A stretch of 23,405 bases of DNA, taken from positions 1-23,405 of the forward strand of contig JAQYWI010000072.1 in the NCBI GenBank assembly GCA_030145015.1, read 5' to 3'. This document shows positions 3 to 10,032 of this stretch, piece after piece. The stretch is from Desulfobacterales bacterium (GTDB taxonomy: Bacteria; Desulfobacterota; Desulfobacteria; Desulfobacterales; JAHEIW01). Within the stretch, counting starts at the first letter, position 1; each line of letters starts with the position of its first letter. The notes below the pieces were generated by a model. The model saw nothing but the letters and a program-made list of their open reading frames with translations, was not told the DNA's origin and searched no databases. The position numbers and the translations under genes are program-made.

Positions 3-611
3 TGCAGGGCCTGTCATGCCTGTGTTGAAATCTGCGAATTCGGCGCACCCCGCTTGAGGGGTACCGAACCCAATCGCTTTTGCTGGATTGACCCCGCCAT
101 CTGTGAGGGCTGCGGATCCTGTGCAGCTCAATGCCCCTCAGGCGCAATTACAGCAGGGTATGCCACCGATACACAATTGGAAGTGATGTTGGATGCCATC
201 TGGGAACAGGCCGACCGGACCGATGAAAAACCGATCGTGCTGGTATTTACCTGTAACTGGAATCCTTACAGCGGGATGGAAACGGCAGCCGTCGAACAGT
301 TGTCCTATTCTGCGCGCGTTTATCCGATTAGAGTCATGTGTTTGGGGCGACTCAGGCCGGGGATTATCCTGAAGGCATTCGAGCGGGGCGCAGGTGGCGT
401 TCTTCTGTTGGGCTGCCCGCAGAATGAATGTCGTTATGAATTCGGGGGTCGTCGCTCCGAAGAGGCTTTTGCGGTTGCCAGAGATTTAGTTCGCACAATG
501 GGCTATTCGGATCAATGGCTTAAAATGGATCGGGTCGCGGCCGGTGATGGCAAAGCCTGGGTGAATAAAATTCACGCCTTTGTCGCCGGGCTAAACGGGA
601 GGCGGGGATAA
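3..611 (+). CDS. HdrA-MvhD fusion, 3' part only (5' end outside window)
   Basis: This is the C-terminal part of a heterodisulfide reductase subunit A-like flavo-iron-sulfur protein. The open frame runs in from the left edge, so I give the visible 202 residues rather than the internal TTG at 54. It shows the end of one ferredoxin cluster motif (CRACHACVEIC), then a complete one (CEGCGSCAAQCP), then an MvhD/FlpD-type hydrogenase iron-sulfur domain with FTCNWNPYSG, VMCLGR and GCPQNECRY. Known MvhD domains carry a [2Fe-2S] centre that passes electrons between HdrA and a partner oxidoreductase. Here the usual CNWC reads CNWN, although four other conserved cysteines remain. The stop lies 2 bp before the next start, so the two genes are surely co-transcribed. 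The flavin domain and any selenocysteine site lie outside the window. Confidence 0.88.
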   Translation, partial: CRACHACVEICEFGAPRLRGTEPNRFCWIDPAICEGCGSCAAQCPSGAITAGYATDTQLEVMLDAIWEQADRTDEKPIVLVFTCNWNPYSGMETAAVEQLSYSARVYPIRVMCLGRLRPGIILKAFERGAGGVLLLGCPQNECRYEFGGRRSEEAFAVARDLVRTMGYSDQWLKMDRVAAGDGKAWVNKIHAFVAGLNGRRG

Positions 612-613
612 TC

Positions 614-1762
614 ATGGGCAACCTGCAGGACATCATCAATCGCAACCGCGCCGGGTACTGTTTGGAATGCGGTAAATGCAGTGCGGTTTGCCCGATCACC
701 GTGTGGGAGACCCGCGCCTATTGCAGCCCGCGCCTGCTGATTGAGAAAGCCCTTAATCGGCATTCGGCTGATCTTTACGAAGATTCTCTGTTCTGGTCAT
801 GTTTGACTTGCAAAAGGTGCAGTGAGCTGTGTCCGTCCGATGTGTTATTTTCGGAGTTTATGCGGGATGCACGTGGATTGGCCCGAAACGACGGCCGGGC
901 AGGGGATTGCAGTCACGGTGGGGTCATCCAAACCTGGGGCGCGATGATGACTGACCCGGGCCTTGATCAGAACAGACTCGACTGGCTTGATCGTGATTTG
1001 AAAGTTTCCGACGATTCAGAAACGTTGTACTTTGTCGGCTGTTTACCTTACTACGAGGTGCAGTTTAAGCACCTGGGCATCGAGGGTTTGGAGATTGCCA
1101 GGGCAGCCGTGAGGATTCTGAACCATCTTGGAATCGAGCCCCAGGTGTTGTCCGATGAGCGCTGCTGTGGCCACGATCAGATTTGGGAAGGCGATACGGC
1201 CACATTTGACGCTTTGGCGCGACTTAATCTCGAACGTTTCAGAGCCAGCAAGGCCAAGCAGATTATTACCACCTGCCCCGAATGTGCCCGTACGCTCGGA
1301 AAGGATTACCCGCAACGGGTTGGGGAGCACGGGATGGAGGTGTTGCACCTCTCTCAATTCATCAGCCGGCAGCCGGCGGCTTCCAAGATCGAATGGGGCC
1401 CGGAACTAAAGAATGGCCCGGCAACTTATCAGGATGCCTGCCGGCTGGGCCGACACCTGGGCGTTTACGAGGAGCCGCGCATGTTATTGCGTGCTTCCGG
1501 GTTGGAGCTGGTTGAGATGGAGCGGGCACGCCGCAGCAGTCTTTGTTGCGGCACCAGCTGCTGGACAGCGTGCGGCCAGGTCAGCAAAAATATCCAGGTT
1601 GAGCGCTTAAAAGAAGCCAAAGCCACCGGTGCTGAACTCTTGATTACAAGCTGTGTTAAATGTCAGATCCATTTTAAATGTGCCCAGCAGGATCCGACTC
1701 TTGAAAATGATATCGCAATTCCGATACGTGATCTGACGACAGTGCTGGCCGATCGGTTGTAA
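614..1762 (+). CDS. HdrC/HdrB-like fusion (HdrD-like) iron-sulfur protein with two CCG domains
   Basis: This 382-residue cytoplasmic protein has no membrane segment. The N-terminal HdrC-like part has two [4Fe-4S] motifs: C16-C19-C22-C26 and C63-C66-C69-C73. Two cysteine-rich CCG domains follow. The first has C143, C184-C185 and C221-x2-C224; the second has C276, C311-C312 and C347-x2-C350. In HdrB/HdrD, CCG domains bind the non-cubane clusters that reduce disulfides. The same layout occurs in many sulfate-reducer electron-transfer complexes. ATG 614 follows GGAGG (598-602) that lies in the end of the preceding gene. Its partner is the HdrA-MvhD protein just upstream; the physiological substrate cannot be told from sequence. 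It is distinct from GlpC/LutA because of the second intact CCG domain and the HdrA neighbour. Confidence 0.87.
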   Translation: MGNLQDIINRNRAGYCLECGKCSAVCPITVWETRAYCSPRLLIEKALNRHSADLYEDSLFWSCLTCKRCSELCPSDVLFSEFMRDARGLARNDGRAGDCSHGGVIQTWGAMMTDPGLDQNRLDWLDRDLKVSDDSETLYFVGCLPYYEVQFKHLGIEGLEIARAAVRILNHLGIEPQVLSDERCCGHDQIWEGDTATFDALARLNLERFRASKAKQIITTCPECARTLGKDYPQRVGEHGMEVLHLSQFISRQPAASKIEWGPELKNGPATYQDACRLGRHLGVYEEPRMLLRASGLELVEMERARRSSLCCGTSCWTACGQVSKNIQVERLKEAKATGAELLITSCVKCQIHFKCAQQDPTLENDIAIPIRDLTTVLADRL

Positions 1763-2118: not shown

Positions 2119-3738
2119 GTGGCCAAAAAATTGACACCGGCCGGAACCCTGGATCCGGACTTTCTTCAAGGCGTTGTCCGTCAGGCAAGTTACCAATGCC
2201 GTGCAGACGGCAGTGGCTTTTACCTGTGGGATTCGGAACAGGAGCAGACATCACTGGTGGCCACACATAACCTGGCGCAAGTGCCCTGGGATGAGGGGTT
2301 GCCGGAACGTGTGATTGCCTCCAGGAAAGCCACGGTTGAAATCTATGCCGATCAGGCCGTATCTTTGGCGGCCCCGTTGATATGGCAAGACGCCGTCCGA
2401 GGCGTGCTCATCGTGTTTGATAAAAATGCAAAGCGGGCCTTTCGGGAGCGGGATACAGCCCTGCTTCAGTCCCTGGCGGACATGACCGCGGCCATGGCTC
2501 AGCAAAACGAGCGGCTGGCACGCATGACGACCCAGTTTCGGACATTGCATACGATTGATGTTGCGCTGACTTCCAGCCTGGAGCTGGAGCGCGTATTGAA
2601 TCTGATACTTGAAAAGGCAGCGGAACTGGTTGACGCCGAGCACGGTTCTTTAAGACAGCTGGACACCGGGTCCGGAAAACTGGTTCTCAAGGCCCATTAT
2701 GGAGACGGTTGGACGCCCGAAAAACTTGCCTATACCCCCCGGATCGGACAGGGGATCGCCCGGTGGGTGGCAGAGAATCGGCGCCCCTACTTGAGCCCTG
2801 ATGTCCGCGATGACCCACTTAACGTCGTCCTTTTTGAAGACATGCGTTCGAGCATATCGGTTCCGCTGCAATTTGGGCAAGAGGATCCGTCAGAGCCGGA
2901 TTCGCTTTTGGGCGTTTTACTTTTAGAAAGCTCGCGGGTGGCCGCCTTTGACCAACAGGATGTCGAACTTCTGGAAGCCTTAGCCCAGGAAGCGGTCATT
3001 GCGATCCAAAACGCCAGCCAGCATCAAAAGCTTCTGGCCGAGCAGGAAAAGCGGTTGGCTGCCGAAAAGTGGGCCATGATGGGCCAGGCCGCTACTGCTT
3101 TGGCGCATCGGATTAATAATCTGATGGGAATTGTGCCGGTCAGTGCCAGAGAAACCTTACGATCTTTGAGCAAATTAGAGGCAACTGATTCTGAGCGACT
3201 CTGGATTGAAGGCAATTTAGAGCGCATCGAGCGCAACGCCCGCTTTGTTCTCAAACTCAGCGAAGCATTGTTTCGCCCCTTCAAGGACTCCGGGCCCACC
3301 GCGCGCCTGGATGTCAACCACCTGCTGATTGAAGCGCTGGAGGCCGCCGATTTGCCGGATAATTTTGAAGTCAGCCGAAACCTTGAAAAGAATTTGCCGT
3401 TGGTGAGCTGCAGCCTGCTTTTGGTGGATATTTTTCTCGAGCTAATAACCAATGCGCGCAAGGCCATGGAAGATCGGGATCGGCGGCAATTGCAGGTGCG
3501 AACACGCTCGGATCAAGATGATGCCGGTCACTGGGTGGTGGTTGAGATCAAAGATAGCGGCAGGGGCATCCCCCCCTGGCAGATGGCCCATTTGTGGAAA
3601 ATGTTTCAACAGAGTGAAGACGGGCTGGGATTTGGATTGTGGTGGCTGCGTACGTTTATTGAGCGTCAGGGCGGCTCAATTGAATGTCACAGCAAGCCTG
3701 ATGACGGCGCCAGGTTTATTGTTCGGTTACCTGTGTAA
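2119..3738 (+). CDS. Cytoplasmic GAF-GAF sensor histidine kinase
   Basis: This 539-residue protein has no signal peptide or membrane helix. A degenerate GAF-like region spans roughly residues 10-130, a clearer GAF domain spans about 145-300, and a short coiled linker follows. The dimerisation/phosphoacceptor helix carries H330 in ALAHRINNLMG. The C-terminal HATPase domain has an N box (ELITNARKAM), G1 (DSGRGIP) and G2 (GLGFGLWW). The residue after the phosphoacceptor His is Arg rather than the Glu/Asp usual in HisKA kinases, which places it with the HRxNN-type GAF kinases. The start is GTG 2119, with AGGGA just upstream. The response regulator 105 bp downstream is the likely partner. GAF domains commonly sense small molecules or redox state, but the ligand here is unknown. 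Confidence 0.87.
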   Translation: MAKKLTPAGTLDPDFLQGVVRQASYQCRADGSGFYLWDSEQEQTSLVATHNLAQVPWDEGLPERVIASRKATVEIYADQAVSLAAPLIWQDAVRGVLIVFDKNAKRAFRERDTALLQSLADMTAAMAQQNERLARMTTQFRTLHTIDVALTSSLELERVLNLILEKAAELVDAEHGSLRQLDTGSGKLVLKAHYGDGWTPEKLAYTPRIGQGIARWVAENRRPYLSPDVRDDPLNVVLFEDMRSSISVPLQFGQEDPSEPDSLLGVLLLESSRVAAFDQQDVELLEALAQEAVIAIQNASQHQKLLAEQEKRLAAEKWAMMGQAATALAHRINNLMGIVPVSARETLRSLSKLEATDSERLWIEGNLERIERNARFVLKLSEALFRPFKDSGPTARLDVNHLLIEALEAADLPDNFEVSRNLEKNLPLVSCSLLLVDIFLELITNARKAMEDRDRRQLQVRTRSDQDDAGHWVVVEIKDSGRGIPPWQMAHLWKMFQQSEDGLGFGLWWLRTFIERQGGSIECHSKPDDGARFIVRLPV

Positions 3739-3843: not shown

Positions 3844-4323
3844 ATGCGAGGCAAAGTCCTGATTGTAGATGACTATTCAGATTGGCGCGATATGCTAAGC
3901 GGTCTGATCGAGCGGGAGGGACATCGGGTCGAAGCGGTCGGCACCCGGGAGACTGCTTTGGCCTATATTGATGAAAACAAAGACCTGGATCTGGTGATTT
4001 TGGATATCCGCCTGGTGGAGACCGAAGAAAACAATGAAGACGGCATGCGCTTGCTGGCTGAAATCCGTAAACGACTTTCTTTTACCAGGGTTATCATGGT
4101 CACGGGATACGGAACCATGGAGACGCAGCGCAAGGCCTTTAAAGAGTTTCAGGCTTTTGATTTTTTCAGTAAAGCCCAATTTGATTCGGACGAATTCAGG
4201 CGCGCATTTCAAGACGCCATCGAACAGACGGTCCGCGACCGTAAGAACTGGAAAGATAAAGAATTAATTCACGATCAAAATTATGAAATGTGGCAGCGTG
4301 ACAAACCCGATCCTGTCGGATAA
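3844..4323 (+). CDS. Single-domain response regulator (REC)
   Basis: This 159-residue receiver protein has no DNA-binding output domain. The acidic pocket is D9-D10 (LIVDDY), the phosphoacceptor is D54 (VILDIRL), the switch threonine is T87 (MVTGYG) and the conserved lysine is K110 (FFSKAQF). The residue after K110 is Ala where Pro is usual. About 45 C-terminal residues form a charged, probably helical extension. The leader AGAGAGAAAAAA serves as a weak ribosome site for ATG 3844. It lies next to the GAF kinase and 102 bp upstream of the selenoprotein HdrA. It probably acts by protein-protein contact or as a phosphorelay intermediate; its target is unknown. Confidence 0.88.
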   Translation: MRGKVLIVDDYSDWRDMLSGLIEREGHRVEAVGTRETALAYIDENKDLDLVILDIRLVETEENNEDGMRLLAEIRKRLSFTRVIMVTGYGTMETQRKAFKEFQAFDFFSKAQFDSDEFRRAFQDAIEQTVRDRKNWKDKELIHDQNYEMWQRDKPDPVG

Positions 4324-4403: not shown

Positions 4404-4425
4404 ATTTTAAACAAGGAGGAATACC

Positions 4426-6984
4426 TTGGCAAAAGAAGATTTACGTATCGGAGTTTTTGTGTGCGACTGTGGTTCAAATATCGCCGGGTTTTTAGATACC
4501 GAGGAAGTGCGCGAGTTCGCTGAAAACCTGCCGGATGTGGTTGTCTCGGTTCGCAATAAGTATACCTGCGCGGATCCGGGACAGCAGGAAATCCAGCGGA
4601 CGATTTTTGAAAACCGGCTGAACCGGATCGTGGTCGCATCCTGTTCACCATCCTCATATGAGCCGATCTTCCGACAATGCATTCAGGGGGCGGGACTTAA
4701 TCCATACCTGCTTGAAATGGCCAATATTCGCGAACACTGCTCCTGGGTTACCCCGGACGCCGGGGCCGCGACCGCAAAGGCCAGAGACATCGTTAAAGTG
4801 GCGGTTTCTCGCGCCAGGTGGCTTTTCCCGCAGGATGAAGAGCAAATCCGGGTTACTGATGCGGCCCTGGTTATCGGCGGCGGCGTGGCCGGCATGCAGG
4901 CAGCGTTGGATTTGGCCGATGCGGGGCATCCGGTGTATCTGGTTGAAAAAAAGCCGTCGATCGGCGGTATCATGGCGCAGCTAGATAAAGTCTATCCGGA
5001 TATTGAGTGCAGCATCTGAATTCTCGGCCCCAAAATGATGGATGTCGGTCGACATCCTAAAATTGAACTTCTGACCCACTCCGAATTAGAGGACATAACG
5101 GGATATGTGGGCAACTTCAAAGCCCGCATTCGCAAAAAAGCCCGCTATGTTGACGCGGAAGCTTGCGTTTCCTGCGGCGACTGTGCCAGCGTTTGCCCGG
5201 TCGTCGTTGCCGACGAATTTCAAATGGGCTTGAGCAGTCGCAGGGCGATATACATTCCTTTTCCGCAGGCAGTCCCGTCCGCATACGTGATCTCGGCCGA
5301 AGATTGTTTAGGTGAAAACCCGATCGCTTGCGGGAAGTGTCTCGAAGTTTGCGATAAAAAATGTATTGACTTTGACCAGGAGGATGAACTTCTGGAAGTC
5401 GAGGTCGGGGCCATAATTGTGGCCACCGGCATGGACGTGTATGATCCCGCAGCCCTGGATGAATATGGCTATACGCGTTTTGTCAATGTGGTCACCAGCA
5501 TCGAATTTGAGCGACTGATCTCCACCGGCGGACCCCTGGGGGGGCACCTGGGCCGGCCCAGTGACCAGGTAAGGCCCCGTCGCATTGGATTCATCCAATG
5601 TGTCGGGTCACGGACTCAGGATCCCAGGCGGGGCAATCCCTATTGTTCGAATATTTGCTGTATGAACACCATCAAAGACGCTCAGTACCTTATGGATACC
5701 TATCCCGATACCGAAGTGATCGTATTTTATATTGACCTGCGGGCTTACGGTAAGGGCTTTGAAGAACTTTTGATGCGAACGCGGGGCAATGGTGTGCGCT
5801 ATGTCCGCGGTTTGCCGGGTGATGTTCGTGAAGATCCCGGCACGCGTAATCTTATGTTAACCGTTGAAAATACGATCGAAAAGCGCCTTGAGAAGCACGA
5901 ATTTGACATGCTGGTTTTGGCAGTCGGCGCTGCGCCGGCGATTGAAACAGAAACGATTCGGCAGATGGTCAGCATTTCTAAATCACCCAGCGGTTTTTTA
6001 AAGGAAGCCCATCCAAAACTGCGCCCGGTAGAGACGCCCACCAAGGGCGTGTTCATTGCAGGTGCTGCTGAAAGCCCCAAGGACGTTCGCGAGAGTGTTA
6101 CCCAGGCCAGTGCTTCAAGCTCGCATGCTTCGATCCTGTTGAGAAAAGATCGATTTGCGGTCGAAGCCATCACGGCTGCTGTGTACGAGGATGCCTGCAC
6201 AAAATGCGGACTATGCGCGCGCGTCTGCCCATTTGGTGCCATCACCTGGCAAAAGAAACAGGTCCCGCAGATAATCAGCGCGGCCTGTGCAGGCTGCGGG
6301 ACCTGCGCTGCTGAATGTAAACCGCATGCAATTGAAATGCGGCACTTCTCGGACCAAGCAATTTATGCCCAGATTGACGCCATCCTGGAAGATGAACCTC
6401 ATGAAAAAATCGTAACATTTGCCTGTAACTGGTGCTCCTATGCCGGAGCCGATACTGCCGGAGTGAGCCGTTTGGCGTATCCGCCGAATGCGCGGATTAT
6501 CCGAACGATGTGTTCGGGTCGTGTCAATCCGGAATTTGTGTGGTATTCATTTCAAAAAGGCGCGCCGATGGTCCTGGTGTCCGGTTGCCACTACGTCGAC
6601 TGTCATTACCTGGACGCTAACCGCAGCACCGTGAGGCGCATGGACGGACTCTGGGACGGCCTGGATAAATCCGGGATTCGCCCTGAACGCCTGCTGCTTG
6701 AATGGTGTTCCGCTGCCGAGGGTGCACGCTGGCAAACCATTATGCAGGCCGCCGAGAAAACACGTCAGGCGGTCACCCCGGAAGAATTGGAACTCACGCG
6801 AGGCGTTTTGGCAAAAGCGCGTGTACCACGTCCTCGCAATCCCAAGCCCGCCGACGAAGAACAGGCGGCCGAATTTGAGTGCCTGCGCTGCGGACGTCGT
6901 TGGGACGGTGTTTTCAGTGTGAAATGGGAACGGGCCTGCCCTGAATGCCGATCCAATAGTGTGCGCTGGCTGCGAAAGGGGTAA
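4426..6984 (+). CDS. hdrA: Selenoprotein HdrA (HdrA-ferredoxin-MvhD-zinc ribbon fusion), UGA 5017-5019 read as Sec
   Basis: This is an 852-residue flavin-based electron-bifurcation subunit, called as one gene across an in-frame UGA at codon 198. TTG 4426 is chosen because AAGGAGGA (4413-4420) lies 5 bp upstream and the HdrA N-terminus (RIGVFVCDCGSNIAG) follows at once. Domains in order: HdrA N-terminal region (about 1-140); FAD-binding GGGVAG (151-156) and E174; cluster motif C195-S-I-U198 followed by ILGPKMMDVGRHPKI; ferredoxin cysteines 247-257 and 294-309; HdrA C-terminal lobe; two [4Fe-4S] motifs (C591-C601 and C621-C631); an MvhD domain (CNWC 667-670, C696, C721, C726); and a terminal CxxC...CxxC ribbon (819-841). 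HdrA homologues have Cys or Sec at the UGA position, and a SECIS hairpin follows. The reading frame and conservation continue unbroken, so a nonsense mutation is unlikely. Partner subunits are probably the Hdr proteins upstream or others elsewhere. Confidence 0.92.
5040..5057 (+). promoter_or_regulatory. Bacterial SECIS element of hdrA
   Basis: GGATGTC-GGTC-GACATCC forms a perfect 7-bp stem with a GGUC tetraloop. The loop starts 28 nt after the UGA (5017-5019). Bacterial SECIS elements lie inside the coding region just downstream of the UGA, with a short apical loop that begins with G; the E. coli fdhF SECIS also has a GGUC loop. SelB with Sec-tRNA would bind it. The stem encodes the conserved MDVGRHP peptide, so RNA and protein constraints overlap. 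Confidence 0.85.
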
Positions 6985-7218: not shown

Positions 7219-7247
7219 TTGACATTCATACCTAAAGTCACTATTGA
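7219..7247 (+). promoter_or_regulatory. Weak candidate promoter for korDABC
   Basis: A perfect -35 hexamer TTGACA (7219-7224) is followed after 17 bp by TATTGA, which fits the -10 consensus only poorly. It lies just to the right of truncated element copy 2 and 48 bp upstream of korD. It is the only promoter-like sequence I see in the gap. Confidence 0.3.
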
Positions 7248-7294
7248 GCCATCTTGCAGATTTTCCCAATACAAATTTAGCCGAGGAAATTTAT

Positions 7295-7519
7295 ATGGCA
7301 AAACCAAAACCAAAACCAAAACCAAAACTAAAAAAACATCATATAAACCGGGATTGGTGTAAGGGATGCGGAATATGTGTTGCGCTTTGCCCCAAAAAGG
7401 TCCTGGAATTAGACGATCAAGAAAAGGTTTCGGCGGTGCGCGCGCAAGACTGTATCTGTTGCAGACTTTGTGAGCTTCGCTGTCCGGACTTTGCAATCGA
7501 GATTGAAACCCAAGAATAG
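7295..7519 (+). CDS. korD: 2-oxoacid:ferredoxin oxidoreductase delta subunit (2[4Fe-4S] ferredoxin)
   Basis: This 74-residue ferredoxin-like subunit has two clusters, CKGCGICVALCP and CICCRLCELRCP. It would carry electrons from the thiamine-bound intermediate in the alpha/beta subunits to free ferredoxin. ATG 7295 is chosen over an in-frame TTG at 7244 because GAGGAAAT (7282-7289) sits right before it and the family starts here. The N-terminus is an odd Lys-Pro run (KPKPKPKPKLKK) encoded by a CCAAAA hexanucleotide repeat. The gene order D-A-B-C with gaps of 3-9 bp marks one operon. Confidence 0.88.
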   Translation: MAKPKPKPKPKLKKHHINRDWCKGCGICVALCPKKVLELDDQEKVSAVRAQDCICCRLCELRCPDFAIEIETQE

Positions 7520-7528
7520 GCATATCAT

Positions 7529-8677
7529 ATGAGTAAAAACGTAAAATTTGTCCAAGGCAACGAGGCCTGTGCTGAAGCGGCTCTGTATGCCGGGCTCAAT
7601 TTTTATGCCGGCTATCCGATTACACCGTCGTCCGAAATTACCGAATATCTGGCCTACCGCCTGCCGCAAATTGGCGGGAAGTTTATGCAGATGGAAGATG
7701 AAATTGCATCGCTGTGTGCCATCATTGGCGCTTCACTAACCGGCTGTAAAGTTATGACAGCCACCAGCGGGCCGGGTTTTTCCTTGATGCAGGAAGCTCT
7801 GGGCTATGCGATTATGGCGGAAATTCCATGTGTCATTGTCGATGTGCAGCGGGGCGGACCGTCCACCGGCCTTCCCACCCACGGCAGCCAGGGCGACATC
7901 AATCAGGCCCGTTGGGGAACCCACGGCGATCATGCCATCATAGCGCTTACGGCTTCAAACCACCAGGATGTGTTTGCCATTACCGTGGAAGCATTTAATT
8001 TAGCCGAAATTTACCGAACGCCGGTTATCGTGCTGCTTGATGAAGTCGTTGCCCATATGCGGGAGCGGCTCGTGATTCCGGAATCCGGTGAAATAGCGCT
8101 GGTCGAGCGACTGAAAACATCCGTCAAAGAAGGCGTTGATTATCATCCCTATTTACCGCGGGAAGATGGACGATTGCCCATGTCTGATTTCGGCGGCGTT
8201 CACCGCTTCAATGTCACCGGATTGGTCCATGACATGTGGGGTTTTCCATCCAGTGATCCCAACGTTGTCCATGGTTTGTTACATCACCTGGTCGATAAAA
8301 TCGAAAACCGGGCCCATCAGCTATCTCGATTTCAGGAATATTATACTGAAGATGCCGAGCATTTATTGCTGTCTTACGGATCTGCAGCCCGTTCCGCTCT
8401 TCATACGGTGGAAGATAGAAGACAGCGAGGCGAGCGCCTGGGGCTGCTGGAACTCCAGACCCTATGGCCATTTCCGGAAGATATGGTGCGTGAAAAATGT
8501 GCTGAGGTGAAGTCGGTCATTGTTGTAGAGCAGAACATGGGTCAGATGCTCCAGGCGGTTAAACGGGCGGTGGATGAACCCGGGAAGGTGTTTCTGGCCA
8601 ATCGAATAGACGGCGTCTTCATAACACCACAGGATATCATGAATATTCTGCGGGTGATCCAGGGAAAGGGGGTTTGA
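7529..8677 (+). CDS. korA: 2-oxoacid:ferredoxin oxidoreductase alpha subunit
   Basis: This 382-residue protein has the length of KorA alone, not the gamma-alpha fusion. It carries the pyrimidine-binding fold of 2-oxoacid:ferredoxin oxidoreductases: GYPITPSSEITEYLA near the N-terminus, the MQMEDEIASLCAIIGAS segment with the glutamate that activates thiamine diphosphate, and ATSGPGFSLMQEALGYA and QRGGPSTGLPTHGSQGD in the following strands. With KorB it oxidatively decarboxylates a 2-oxoacid plus CoA to acyl-CoA, CO2 and reduced ferredoxin, or runs in reverse in CO2 fixation. 2-Oxoglutarate is the likely substrate from subunit architecture, but branched-chain or other 2-oxoacids cannot be excluded. 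ATG 7529 lies 9 bp after korD. Confidence 0.9.
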   Translation: MSKNVKFVQGNEACAEAALYAGLNFYAGYPITPSSEITEYLAYRLPQIGGKFMQMEDEIASLCAIIGASLTGCKVMTATSGPGFSLMQEALGYAIMAEIPCVIVDVQRGGPSTGLPTHGSQGDINQARWGTHGDHAIIALTASNHQDVFAITVEAFNLAEIYRTPVIVLLDEVVAHMRERLVIPESGEIALVERLKTSVKEGVDYHPYLPREDGRLPMSDFGGVHRFNVTGLVHDMWGFPSSDPNVVHGLLHHLVDKIENRAHQLSRFQEYYTEDAEHLLLSYGSAARSALHTVEDRRQRGERLGLLELQTLWPFPEDMVREKCAEVKSVIVVEQNMGQMLQAVKRAVDEPGKVFLANRIDGVFITPQDIMNILRVIQGKGV

Positions 8678-8680
8678 CTC

Positions 8681-9484
8681 ATGGCCGTAAAGGATTATTT
8701 GCGAGAACGGTTTTTTCCCCATTTGTGGTGCCCGGGATGCGGTCACGGCATGATTTTAAACGGTCTTCTCCAAGCCATTGAAAAACTGGGAATGAGTAAA
8801 AATGAGATTGTTATGGTATCCGGCATCGGGTGCTCGTCCAGGATCACAGGCTATGTTGACTTTCACACCCTGCACACGATTCATGGCCGCGCCTTAGCGT
8901 TTGCAACCGGTGTAAAGATGGCACGCCCGGAGCTCAACCTCATCGTTCCCATGGGCGATGGCGATGCCCTTGCCATCGGCGGGAATCATTTTATCCATGC
9001 TGCCCGCAGAAACATTGACATCACCGCAATCGTCATGAACAACCGGATCTACGGCATGACCGGCGGGCAGTTTTCGCCGCTTTCGGGCGAAAATGTGCGC
9101 GCGACGACGGCGCCATATTTGACCATCGATCCCAGTTTTGATGTTGTGGCGCTGTCAAAAGCTGCCGGTGCTACCTTTGTTGCGCGAACGACTTCCTATC
9201 ACATTCAACAGATGACCGACATCATCCGACAAGCGATTCTGCACCCGGGCTTTGCGGTGGTGGAGATTTTTTCACAGTGTCCGACCTATTTCGGCCGTAA
9301 AAACAAAGCCGGAGATGCCGTGGATATGGTCCAGTATTTCAAAAAAAATACCACCTCGATTGGCTCAAAGGCCAAACAGGAAAATTCTGACTTAATTGAA
9401 CGCGGTATTTTTGTCCAAAAAGAGCTGCCGGAATATTGCAGCGAATACGAAAAAGTGGTTCAAAGGGCAATGAAAGGGCAATAA
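8681..9484 (+). CDS. korB: 2-oxoacid:ferredoxin oxidoreductase beta subunit (TPP-binding)
   Basis: This 267-residue protein holds the thiamine diphosphate/Mg site: G92-D-G-D95, then N120-N121 at the end of the motif (MGDGDALAIGG ... IVMNN). N-terminal C17-x2-C20 (WCPGCGHG) and C51 (GIGCSS) are typical of cluster ligands in the family. YGMTGGQFSP follows. It pairs with KorA to form the active site. The start, ATG 8681, is 3 bp after the korA stop, with the ribosome site GGAAAGGGGG in the end of korA. Confidence 0.91.
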   Translation: MAVKDYLRERFFPHLWCPGCGHGMILNGLLQAIEKLGMSKNEIVMVSGIGCSSRITGYVDFHTLHTIHGRALAFATGVKMARPELNLIVPMGDGDALAIGGNHFIHAARRNIDITAIVMNNRIYGMTGGQFSPLSGENVRATTAPYLTIDPSFDVVALSKAAGATFVARTTSYHIQQMTDIIRQAILHPGFAVVEIFSQCPTYFGRKNKAGDAVDMVQYFKKNTTSIGSKAKQENSDLIERGIFVQKELPEYCSEYEKVVQRAMKGQ

Positions 9485-9486
9485 AA

Positions 9487-10032
9487 ATGGAGAGATGCAG
9501 AATGGTGTTTTCGGGTTCGGGCGGGCAGGGCGTTATCACCGCAGCCATTATTCTGGCCGAAGCGGCGGTGCTCTATGACAACCTGAATGCCGTGCAATCT
9601 CAGTTCTACGGTCCTGAGGCCAGAGGCGGGGCAACGCGTTCAGATATCATCATATCAGATTCTGTAATCCATTATCCGAAAGTGATGCAACCCAATGTGC
9701 TGGTATGCCTGACACAGGCTGCCTATAATAAATTTTATCCGGCAATCCGGCCGGGCGGTTTGCTGATTACCGATACCCGGCATGTAAAAACTGAAAAGAA
9801 AGTTGACGCACAACAAAAAGAACTTGCGATGTATGAAACCATCATGGAAGCGATCGGCAAACCCATTGTGTTTAACATTTGCATGCTCGGTGCGGTTATC
9901 CAGCTGACGAACGTGGTTAAACCTAATTCCGTCCTGAAGATTTTAGAAAAAAGAATTCCGGCAGACTTTCTGGAAATGAATCGCAAGGCGCTGAATATAG
10001 GAATCAAGTTAGGTGAGGCCGCAACAGCATAA
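9487..10032 (+). CDS. korC: 2-oxoacid:ferredoxin oxidoreductase gamma subunit
   Basis: This 181-residue protein of the gamma family has the N-terminal nucleotide/CoA-loop-like SGSGGQGVITAA and the signature QSQFYGPEARGGATRSDI. ATG 9487 is chosen (2 bp after the korB stop, with AAAGGG in the end of korB) rather than an upstream in-frame start that would overlap korB. It closes the kor operon. Element copy 3 begins 3 bp after its stop and lies between it and the converging prepilin peptidase gene. Confidence 0.89.
   Translation: MERCRMVFSGSGGQGVITAAIILAEAAVLYDNLNAVQSQFYGPEARGGATRSDIIISDSVIHYPKVMQPNVLVCLTQAAYNKFYPAIRPGGLLITDTRHVKTEKKVDAQQKELAMYETIMEAIGKPIVFNICMLGAVIQLTNVVKPNSVLKILEKRIPADFLEMNRKALNIGIKLGEAATA

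Follow-up and report, generated by a model that had tools for sequence, protein, structure and literature searches.

Can a stop codon in the middle of an hdrA gene be read as selenocysteine, and what would selenium do at that place? The question is raised by a stretch of 23,405 nucleotides from a Desulfobacterales bacterium, analysed here as a whole and called the window, in which two open reading frames lie in the same phase on the forward strand, one at 4426-5019 (197 aa, with a TTG start and a TGA stop) and one at 5035-6984 (649 aa). When the TGA at 5017-5019, the single in-frame TGA of the hdrA frame 4426-6984, is read as a residue, the two become one protein of 852 residues with the junction ECSI-U198-ILGPKMMDVGRHP. 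A join of these frames through one UGA had been proposed from the letters of the sequence, and the list of open reading frames and the read-through translation agree with it. Our results indicate that the mid-gene stop is almost certainly read as selenocysteine. The wider reading, in which an HdrA2-MvhD selenoprotein with a hairpin-guided Sec198 would form the core of a bifurcating complex and bind the iron-sulfur cluster of its partner through Sec198, we consider likely. The features of the locus are collected in Table 1.

Table 1. Features of the hdrA2-mvhD locus, in coordinates of the window
Feature	Position	Strand	Evidence or remark
Upstream HdrA-like protein end: C-terminal ferredoxin + FlpD	3..611	+	cut by window edge
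HdrD-like (HdrC-HdrB fusion type), Fer4 + two CCG domains	614..1762	+	profile matches
GAF-domain sensor histidine kinase	2119..3738	+	profile matches
Single-domain response regulator	3844..4323	+	profile matches
Shine-Dalgarno-like AAGGAGG	4413..4419	+	6 nt 5' of TTG start; spotted by eye
hdrA2-mvhD gene	4426..6984	+	TTG start, one internal TGA; predicted 852-residue selenoprotein
UGA codon, predicted Sec198, motif C195-S-I-U198	5017..5019	+	aligned with Cys197 of 5odc_A
SECIS-like hairpin GGATGTC-GGTC-GACATCC	5040..5057	+	7-bp stem; loop begins 28 nt after UGA
FlpD/MvhD domain, residues 662-777	6409..6756	+	PF02662 141.1 bits; matches solved MvhD chains
Zinc-ribbon-like Cys pairs C819, C822, C838, C841	6880..6948	+	Zn_ribbon_8 26.1 bits, cut-off 34.4
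KorD-like ferredoxin of 2-oxoacid:ferredoxin oxidoreductase	7244..7519	+	no family above curated NCBIfam cut-off
KorA-like alpha subunit	7529..8677	+	NF006412 525.2 bits, cut-off 411
KorB-like beta subunit	8681..9484	+	NCBIfam scores under curated cut-offs
KorC-like gamma subunit	9436..10032	+	PF01558 118.2 bits

One protein across the UGA

The kinship of the joined protein with the HdrA families is borne out by the HdrA2 model NF040770, which gives a single match across the UGA, from residue 7 to residue 787, with 1096.8 bits over profile positions 1-775 of 777. The curated cut-off of this model, 1100, lies about 3 bits higher, and relatives in two genomes (G006 and G004) pass it with 1106.2 and 1103.1 bits. 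Among solved structures the window protein matches 5odc_A, from a source organism that we take to be a Methanothermococcus, over residues 4-656 with 734.2 bits, and 9sfi_A with 633.3 bits. With the domain names of the N-terminal part taken from the accessible text of PMC9012536 and PMC12054007, the order is an N-terminal cluster domain, a FAD/thioredoxin-reductase-like domain with an inserted ferredoxin, a C-terminal ferredoxin, an FlpD/MvhD domain in the Cys form, which holds no second UGA, and a zinc-ribbon-like tail. The long fusion with ferredoxin, MvhD and a zinc ribbon was recovered as originally predicted, the 39 final residues resembling a zinc ribbon with a score under the Pfam cut-off; among 80 orthologue rows, made up of 79 loci and the window, each of the four cysteines of the tail is present in 28.

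The database's best protein, P0002 (650 aa, 325 member sequences), is 97% identical and covers the downstream part only, 76% of the query, which fits the expectation that automatic annotation would report truncated genes. A second selenocysteine was sought in 18 other open reading frames of the window; three end in TGA, of which two meet further stops and one directly abuts the start of the next gene. A search of the window for RNA families at the gathering threshold and for tRNAs found none.

TGA and cysteine codons among relatives

A genome scan confirmed 209 relatives, and the best 80 of them were fetched for codon counts; the scan patterns were derived from the window protein, which biases this sample toward its own subfamily. 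Among these best 80 of 209 the codon aligned with residue 198 is TGA in 73 and TGT or TGC in 7, and the TGA relatives are spread over many phyla. An in-frame TGA where homologues have Cys, a feature by which bacterial selenoproteins are recognized, is therefore present. We also compared the window gene with ten close relatives by the Nei-Gojobori method, separately for the two sides of the TGA. On the 5' side dN/dS was 0.034-0.059 (7 of 10 comparisons estimable, dS being saturated in the rest) and on the 3' side 0.057-0.102 (4 of 10 estimable, with saturation in the rest), where the value of 0.102 belongs to L022, whose downstream part enters a scaffold gap. Purifying selection acts on both sides of the TGA. 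Since the HMM match spans the UGA, the TGA/Cys codon is conserved in relatives and dN/dS is low on both sides, the join of the two frames is not a matter of chance. In the record of L022 (6001-8616) hdrA meets a stretch of N beyond which the sequence is unrelated, apparently through a fault of scaffolding.

In a tree of 80 rows (L052 omitted), unrooted and obtained by a quick search with no bootstrap or AU test, the seven Cys rows fall together, with support 100, beside a TGA row. As they are one clade, a single change explains all of them, and the TGA/Cys contrast should be counted as one evolutionary event. The rows in question (L031, L032, L033, L036, L039, L050 and L051) are a Chloroflexota clade in which Val replaces the Ile after Cys, and its seven genomes still carry SelB.

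A hairpin tied to the TGA

Bacterial SECIS elements are defined, in the available text of PMC1088965, as stem-loops close 3' of the UGA with a small apical loop that contains G. The hairpin at 5040-5057 corresponds to this definition in its position and its small G-containing loop, with a weak energy z-score. Folding energy was discarded as proof of a SECIS: the window hairpin gave z -0.70, with 44 of 200 shuffles folding equally well, and synonymous shuffling gave a mean z of -0.94 for 75 TGA rows versus -0.37 for 8 Cys rows, sets that include one extra TGA row (L067) and one distant Cys row (L075). Because energy was too weak alone, codon comparison and pair counting were used in its place.

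Of the 74 TGA genes (window counted), 73 have all seven pairs of the hairpin and the remaining one, L019, has six; none of the 7 Cys genes has the full set. The GGT codon of the loop and the CAT codon of the stem are invariant in all 74 TGA genes; the seven Cys genes encode the same peptide, MMDVGRHP, with other codons and retain 3 to 6 pairs, the highest number being that of L039, which at 6 of 7 equals L019. For pair counting, 27 rows were picked by hand, comprising 22 of the 74 TGA genes and 5 TGA paralogues. In these chosen rows 189 of 189 cells are paired, five of the seven pairs are invariant, and one position varies as U-A, C-G or U-G and is paired in every row. Neither the observed proportion of paired cells nor the observed covariation score was reached by any of 500 shuffles; the number of pairs with two-sided change in the same rows, one, was reached by 207 of 500. 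More distant HdrA loci (L082, L086-L091, L093-L097) have another hairpin, CTGGTCG-AGGT-CGGCCGG, identical in sequence in 12 of 12 TGA loci and with its loop 23 nt after the UGA, which suggests that a second type of SECIS also serves this position of the protein.

Decoding of the UGA

The machinery for selenocysteine is found in the genomes of the relatives. SelB scored above its cut-off in all 15 genomes searched for it, the seven Cys-form genomes among them; SelA and SelD were each found in 9 of 9, with one TGA within each best SelD match; and tRNA-Sec was above cut-off in 8 of 9. The ninth genome, G005, is that of L022, the closest relative by HdrA identity, and yielded no tRNA-Sec above cut-off among the 150 of 591 candidates scored (best 43.2 versus 47 bits). 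Six Desulfobacterales, Desulfosarcina or Deltaproteobacteria genomes hold further HdrA-like matches with one internal TGA, among the matches listed and with 52 candidates scored per genome.

The original prediction of a selenoprotein is favored by the exchange of TGA and Cys codons, the full hairpin of TGA genes only, purifying selection, the machinery of the relatives and published precedent (PMC1794560 and PMC13188914, in their accessible parts). From such sequence comparisons we have very little doubt that the UGA at 5017-5019 would be decoded as Sec198, and the decoding would be done by SelB carrying Sec-tRNA and guided by the hairpin at 5040-5057.

Two readings dispense with selenocysteine. 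Were the UGA a true stop, a protein of 197 aa and an internally started one of 649 aa, each with an in-frame start codon, could come together as an HdrA in two pieces, and Deltaproteobacteria are reported to have split hdrA genes in the available part of PMC1794560; we consider this highly improbable, however, because a start at ATG 5035 would lose residues 198-203, a reading by eye (not a scan) found no Shine-Dalgarno-like stretch 5' of that ATG, the protein of the seven relatives with Cys at the site aligns straight through, and the full hairpin occurs in the downstream codons only where the TGA is present. Least credible of all is a sequencing error or disabling mutation in a Cys-type hdrA or a pseudogene, which one stop codon in one record might suggest, given the same TGA in 73 of the best 80 of 209 relatives from many phyla, the purifying selection 3' of it and the hairpin tied to it.

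What Sec198 would do

With the UGA read as Sec198, the question becomes whether the residue is a cluster ligand or a redox thiol, two roles between which the original prediction had made no choice. Counted in the alignment, U198 corresponds to the second Cys of CSIC in 5odc_A, Cys197. In the accessible text of PMC9012536, Cys197 of the solved HdrA is a trans ligand, lent to the N-terminal iron-sulfur cluster of the partner HdrA; that this numbering is the one of 5odc we infer from their agreement. The other solved HdrA, 9sfi_A, has the non-standard letter X at the residue aligned with U198, which would fit selenocysteine. A search for literature on PDB 9sfi or 9t1s found none.

Double HdrA proteins provide a further line of evidence. 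Among the fetched bacterial loci, 28 FAD-domain units have Sec or Cys at 198 (22 Sec, 6 Cys) and no N-terminal domain of their own. In 22 of them a second unit follows in the same frame, and in the other six (L052, L067, L075, L090, L097 and L098) no unit follows in frame. The second units have the N-terminal domain in 22 of 22 cases and Sec or Cys at 198 in none, 15 having another residue there and 7 a gap; CxxC or CxxU occurs in that segment in 0 of 22. This tally of double proteins rests solely on same-frame pairs. In the unit tally one gene is counted twice, as that of L001 and once more within L081, and the 66 rows with neither Sec nor Cys include other Rossmann-fold fragments; 20 regions were picked by hand from HdrA-like matches in six genomes and do not represent independent samples.

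The half with Sec/Cys198 and the half with the N-terminal domain are thus complementary in all 22 double proteins, which favors a cluster ligand over a CxxU redox pair. C195 vanishes together with U198 in the partner units, so the result bears alike on U198 alone and on both residues. The double proteins are L035, L038, L054, L055, L063, L065, L069, L080, L082-L089 and L091-L096. In these bacterial proteins the Sec/Cys198 unit precedes the unit with the N-terminal domain, whereas in the archaeal HdrA fusions the unit with the N-terminal domain is reported to stand first (PMC9012536, accessible text).

The cluster-ligating half of the original alternative is consequently the better supported. 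Sec198, located in the FAD domain at the site of Cys197 in the solved HdrA, would most likely act as a ligand to the [4Fe-4S] cluster in the N-terminal domain of the partner HdrA, a role described for the Cys form, and selenium at this site would tune the cluster on the branch from FAD to ferredoxin. Thiol chemistry like that of thioredoxin reductase, with Sec198 and C195 as a CxxU redox pair cycling via a selenosulfide and not as a cluster ligand, seems unlikely against the description of the aligned Cys197 as a trans ligand (PMC9012536, same text) and the 22 of 22 complementarity; in its favor are the position of the site within a thioredoxin-reductase-like domain, the conservation of C195 in all 80 orthologue rows (window included), and CxxU as the family motif in the portion of the review PMC13188914 that was available.

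The ligand reading can be extended to bacterial HdrA in general, and here our opinion is evenly divided. The selenocysteine of these proteins may be a selenolate ligand, across the dimer interface, to a [4Fe-4S] cluster on the low-potential branch of a bifurcating enzyme, with a cluster-tuning role rather than that of a catalytic thiol, and Sec would probably be ancestral in an HdrA2-MvhD subfamily found in many phyla, the Chloroflexota clade having reverted once to Cys. Among the open-access papers listed by our searches we recognised no statement of a Sec-ligated cluster in HdrA.

Gene neighbourhood and the putative complex

At the level of genes, the features of an HdrABC bifurcating complex are present, namely an HdrA FAD domain, an HdrD-like protein and FlpD nearby. 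Upstream DNA of 5.5 kb or more was available for 55 loci, of which 51 encode an FlpD-like homologue and 53 an HdrD-like one upstream on the same strand, and 30 have there one or more Kor-like homologues, for the alpha, beta or gamma subunit. Among the 53 loci whose downstream DNA extends over 5 kb, Kor homologues were found downstream in 4 (L001, L003, L024 and L063). The relative L005 (81% identity) has none of the FlpD, HdrD or Kor neighbours.

Together with the adjacent HdrD-like and FlpD proteins, the HdrA2-MvhD protein would probably form a soluble complex and be its flavin-bifurcating core. The gene order suggests that the neighbouring 2-oxoacid:ferredoxin oxidoreductase probably feeds this complex or is fed by it. 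Such a complex would connect the chemistry of 2-oxoacids and ferredoxin with an acceptor of the Hdr type. To our knowledge, the use of CoM/CoB would not be expected in such a bacterium. Kor-type genes recur beside FlpD-HdrD-HdrA2 genes across several phyla, and this recurrence points to a Kor-Hdr complex, of which a limited literature search found no description.

The two-component system that had been noticed beside the gene consists of the GAF histidine kinase and the response regulator of Table 1. Such a pair lies upstream in 8 of 80 loci (L001, L002, L003, L004, L007, L010, L022 and L028), all of which fall in the 18-row branch of the tree that contains the window. In these eight the pair sits between the HdrD-like gene and hdrA; seven of the records are titled Desulfobacterales, Desulfosarcina, Desulfobacteraceae or Deltaproteobacteria and one Chloroflexi.

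The upstream protein cut by the window edge has a fuller copy in L081 (7133-10850), which is an HdrA/GltD-like fusion with no Cys at the 197 position; the ferredoxin and FlpD that share one frame in the window (3-611) are separate overlapping genes in L081. In the G001 relative the upstream protein is an HdrA-like fusion of 1111 residues with Fer4_20 and Pyr_redox_2, and another Kor-like set stands before it.

Comparison with known systems

Because standard gene calling splits the gene, a core protein of energy metabolism is readily misinterpreted in anaerobes. Should Sec198 be a trans iron-sulfur ligand, pairs of Sec and Cys HdrA would constitute a natural experiment on selenium and cluster potential in bifurcation, in which the seven Cys orthologues and the double HdrA proteins of this study could serve at once for comparison.

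That Sec HdrA is known from methanogens and some sulfate reducers had been anticipated, and agrees with the accessible text of PMC12054007 and PMC2702500. As far as the parts of these sources available to us go, HdrA was listed in 2006 with 16 bacterial selenoproteins, seven in Syntrophobacter fumaroxidans (PMC1794560), appears with CxxU and NF040770 in the table of a 2026 review (PMC13188914), and occurs in the Sec form in Asgard archaea as well (PMC11227280); in methanogens, partial hdrA genes have been attributed to misread selenocysteine (PMC12054007). HdrA fused to MvhD is likewise established, as type Ia or HdrA2 (PMC6019823 and PMC12054007, in part). Since both forms are established, the window gene adds a member to a known selenoprotein family.

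The window protein belongs to the same protein family as the bacterial Sec HdrA of PMC1794560 and PMC13188914. In the available text that family stands in a glpC-hdrA-frhD-frhG-frhA operon, whereas the window gene has MvhD and a zinc-ribbon-like tail fused to it and lies beside Kor and two-component genes. The C-terminal MvhD fusion is shared with HdrA2 of Methanosarcina acetivorans, a type Ia HdrA (PMC6019823 and PMC12054007, in part), where HdrA2B2C2 is reported to carry out F420H2-dependent electron bifurcation (PMC6019823, available text); the window protein differs in being bacterial, in its predicted Sec for Cys and in the HdrC-HdrB-type fusion next door. About 650 residues align with the HdrA of PDB 5odc (HdrABC-MvhAGD) and of 9sfi, but 5odc_A is a Cys form with a separate MvhD, whereas the window protein would be a Sec form with MvhD fused.

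Desulfobacterium autotrophicum HRM2 shares with the window a Sec HdrA, which in the window is predicted: according to the portion of PMC2702500 at hand, this sulfate reducer has Sec forms of HdrA1, HdrA2, HdrL1 and HdrL3. The Kor and two-component arrangement of the window was not seen for HRM2 in that portion. Its HdrL, an HdrA/glutamate-synthase fusion, resembles the upstream protein of L081. In HRM2, again within the same text, mvhD follows every hdrA or hdrL gene except hdrA4, and HdrA and MvhD are products of separate genes, whereas in the window they are encoded by one fused gene.
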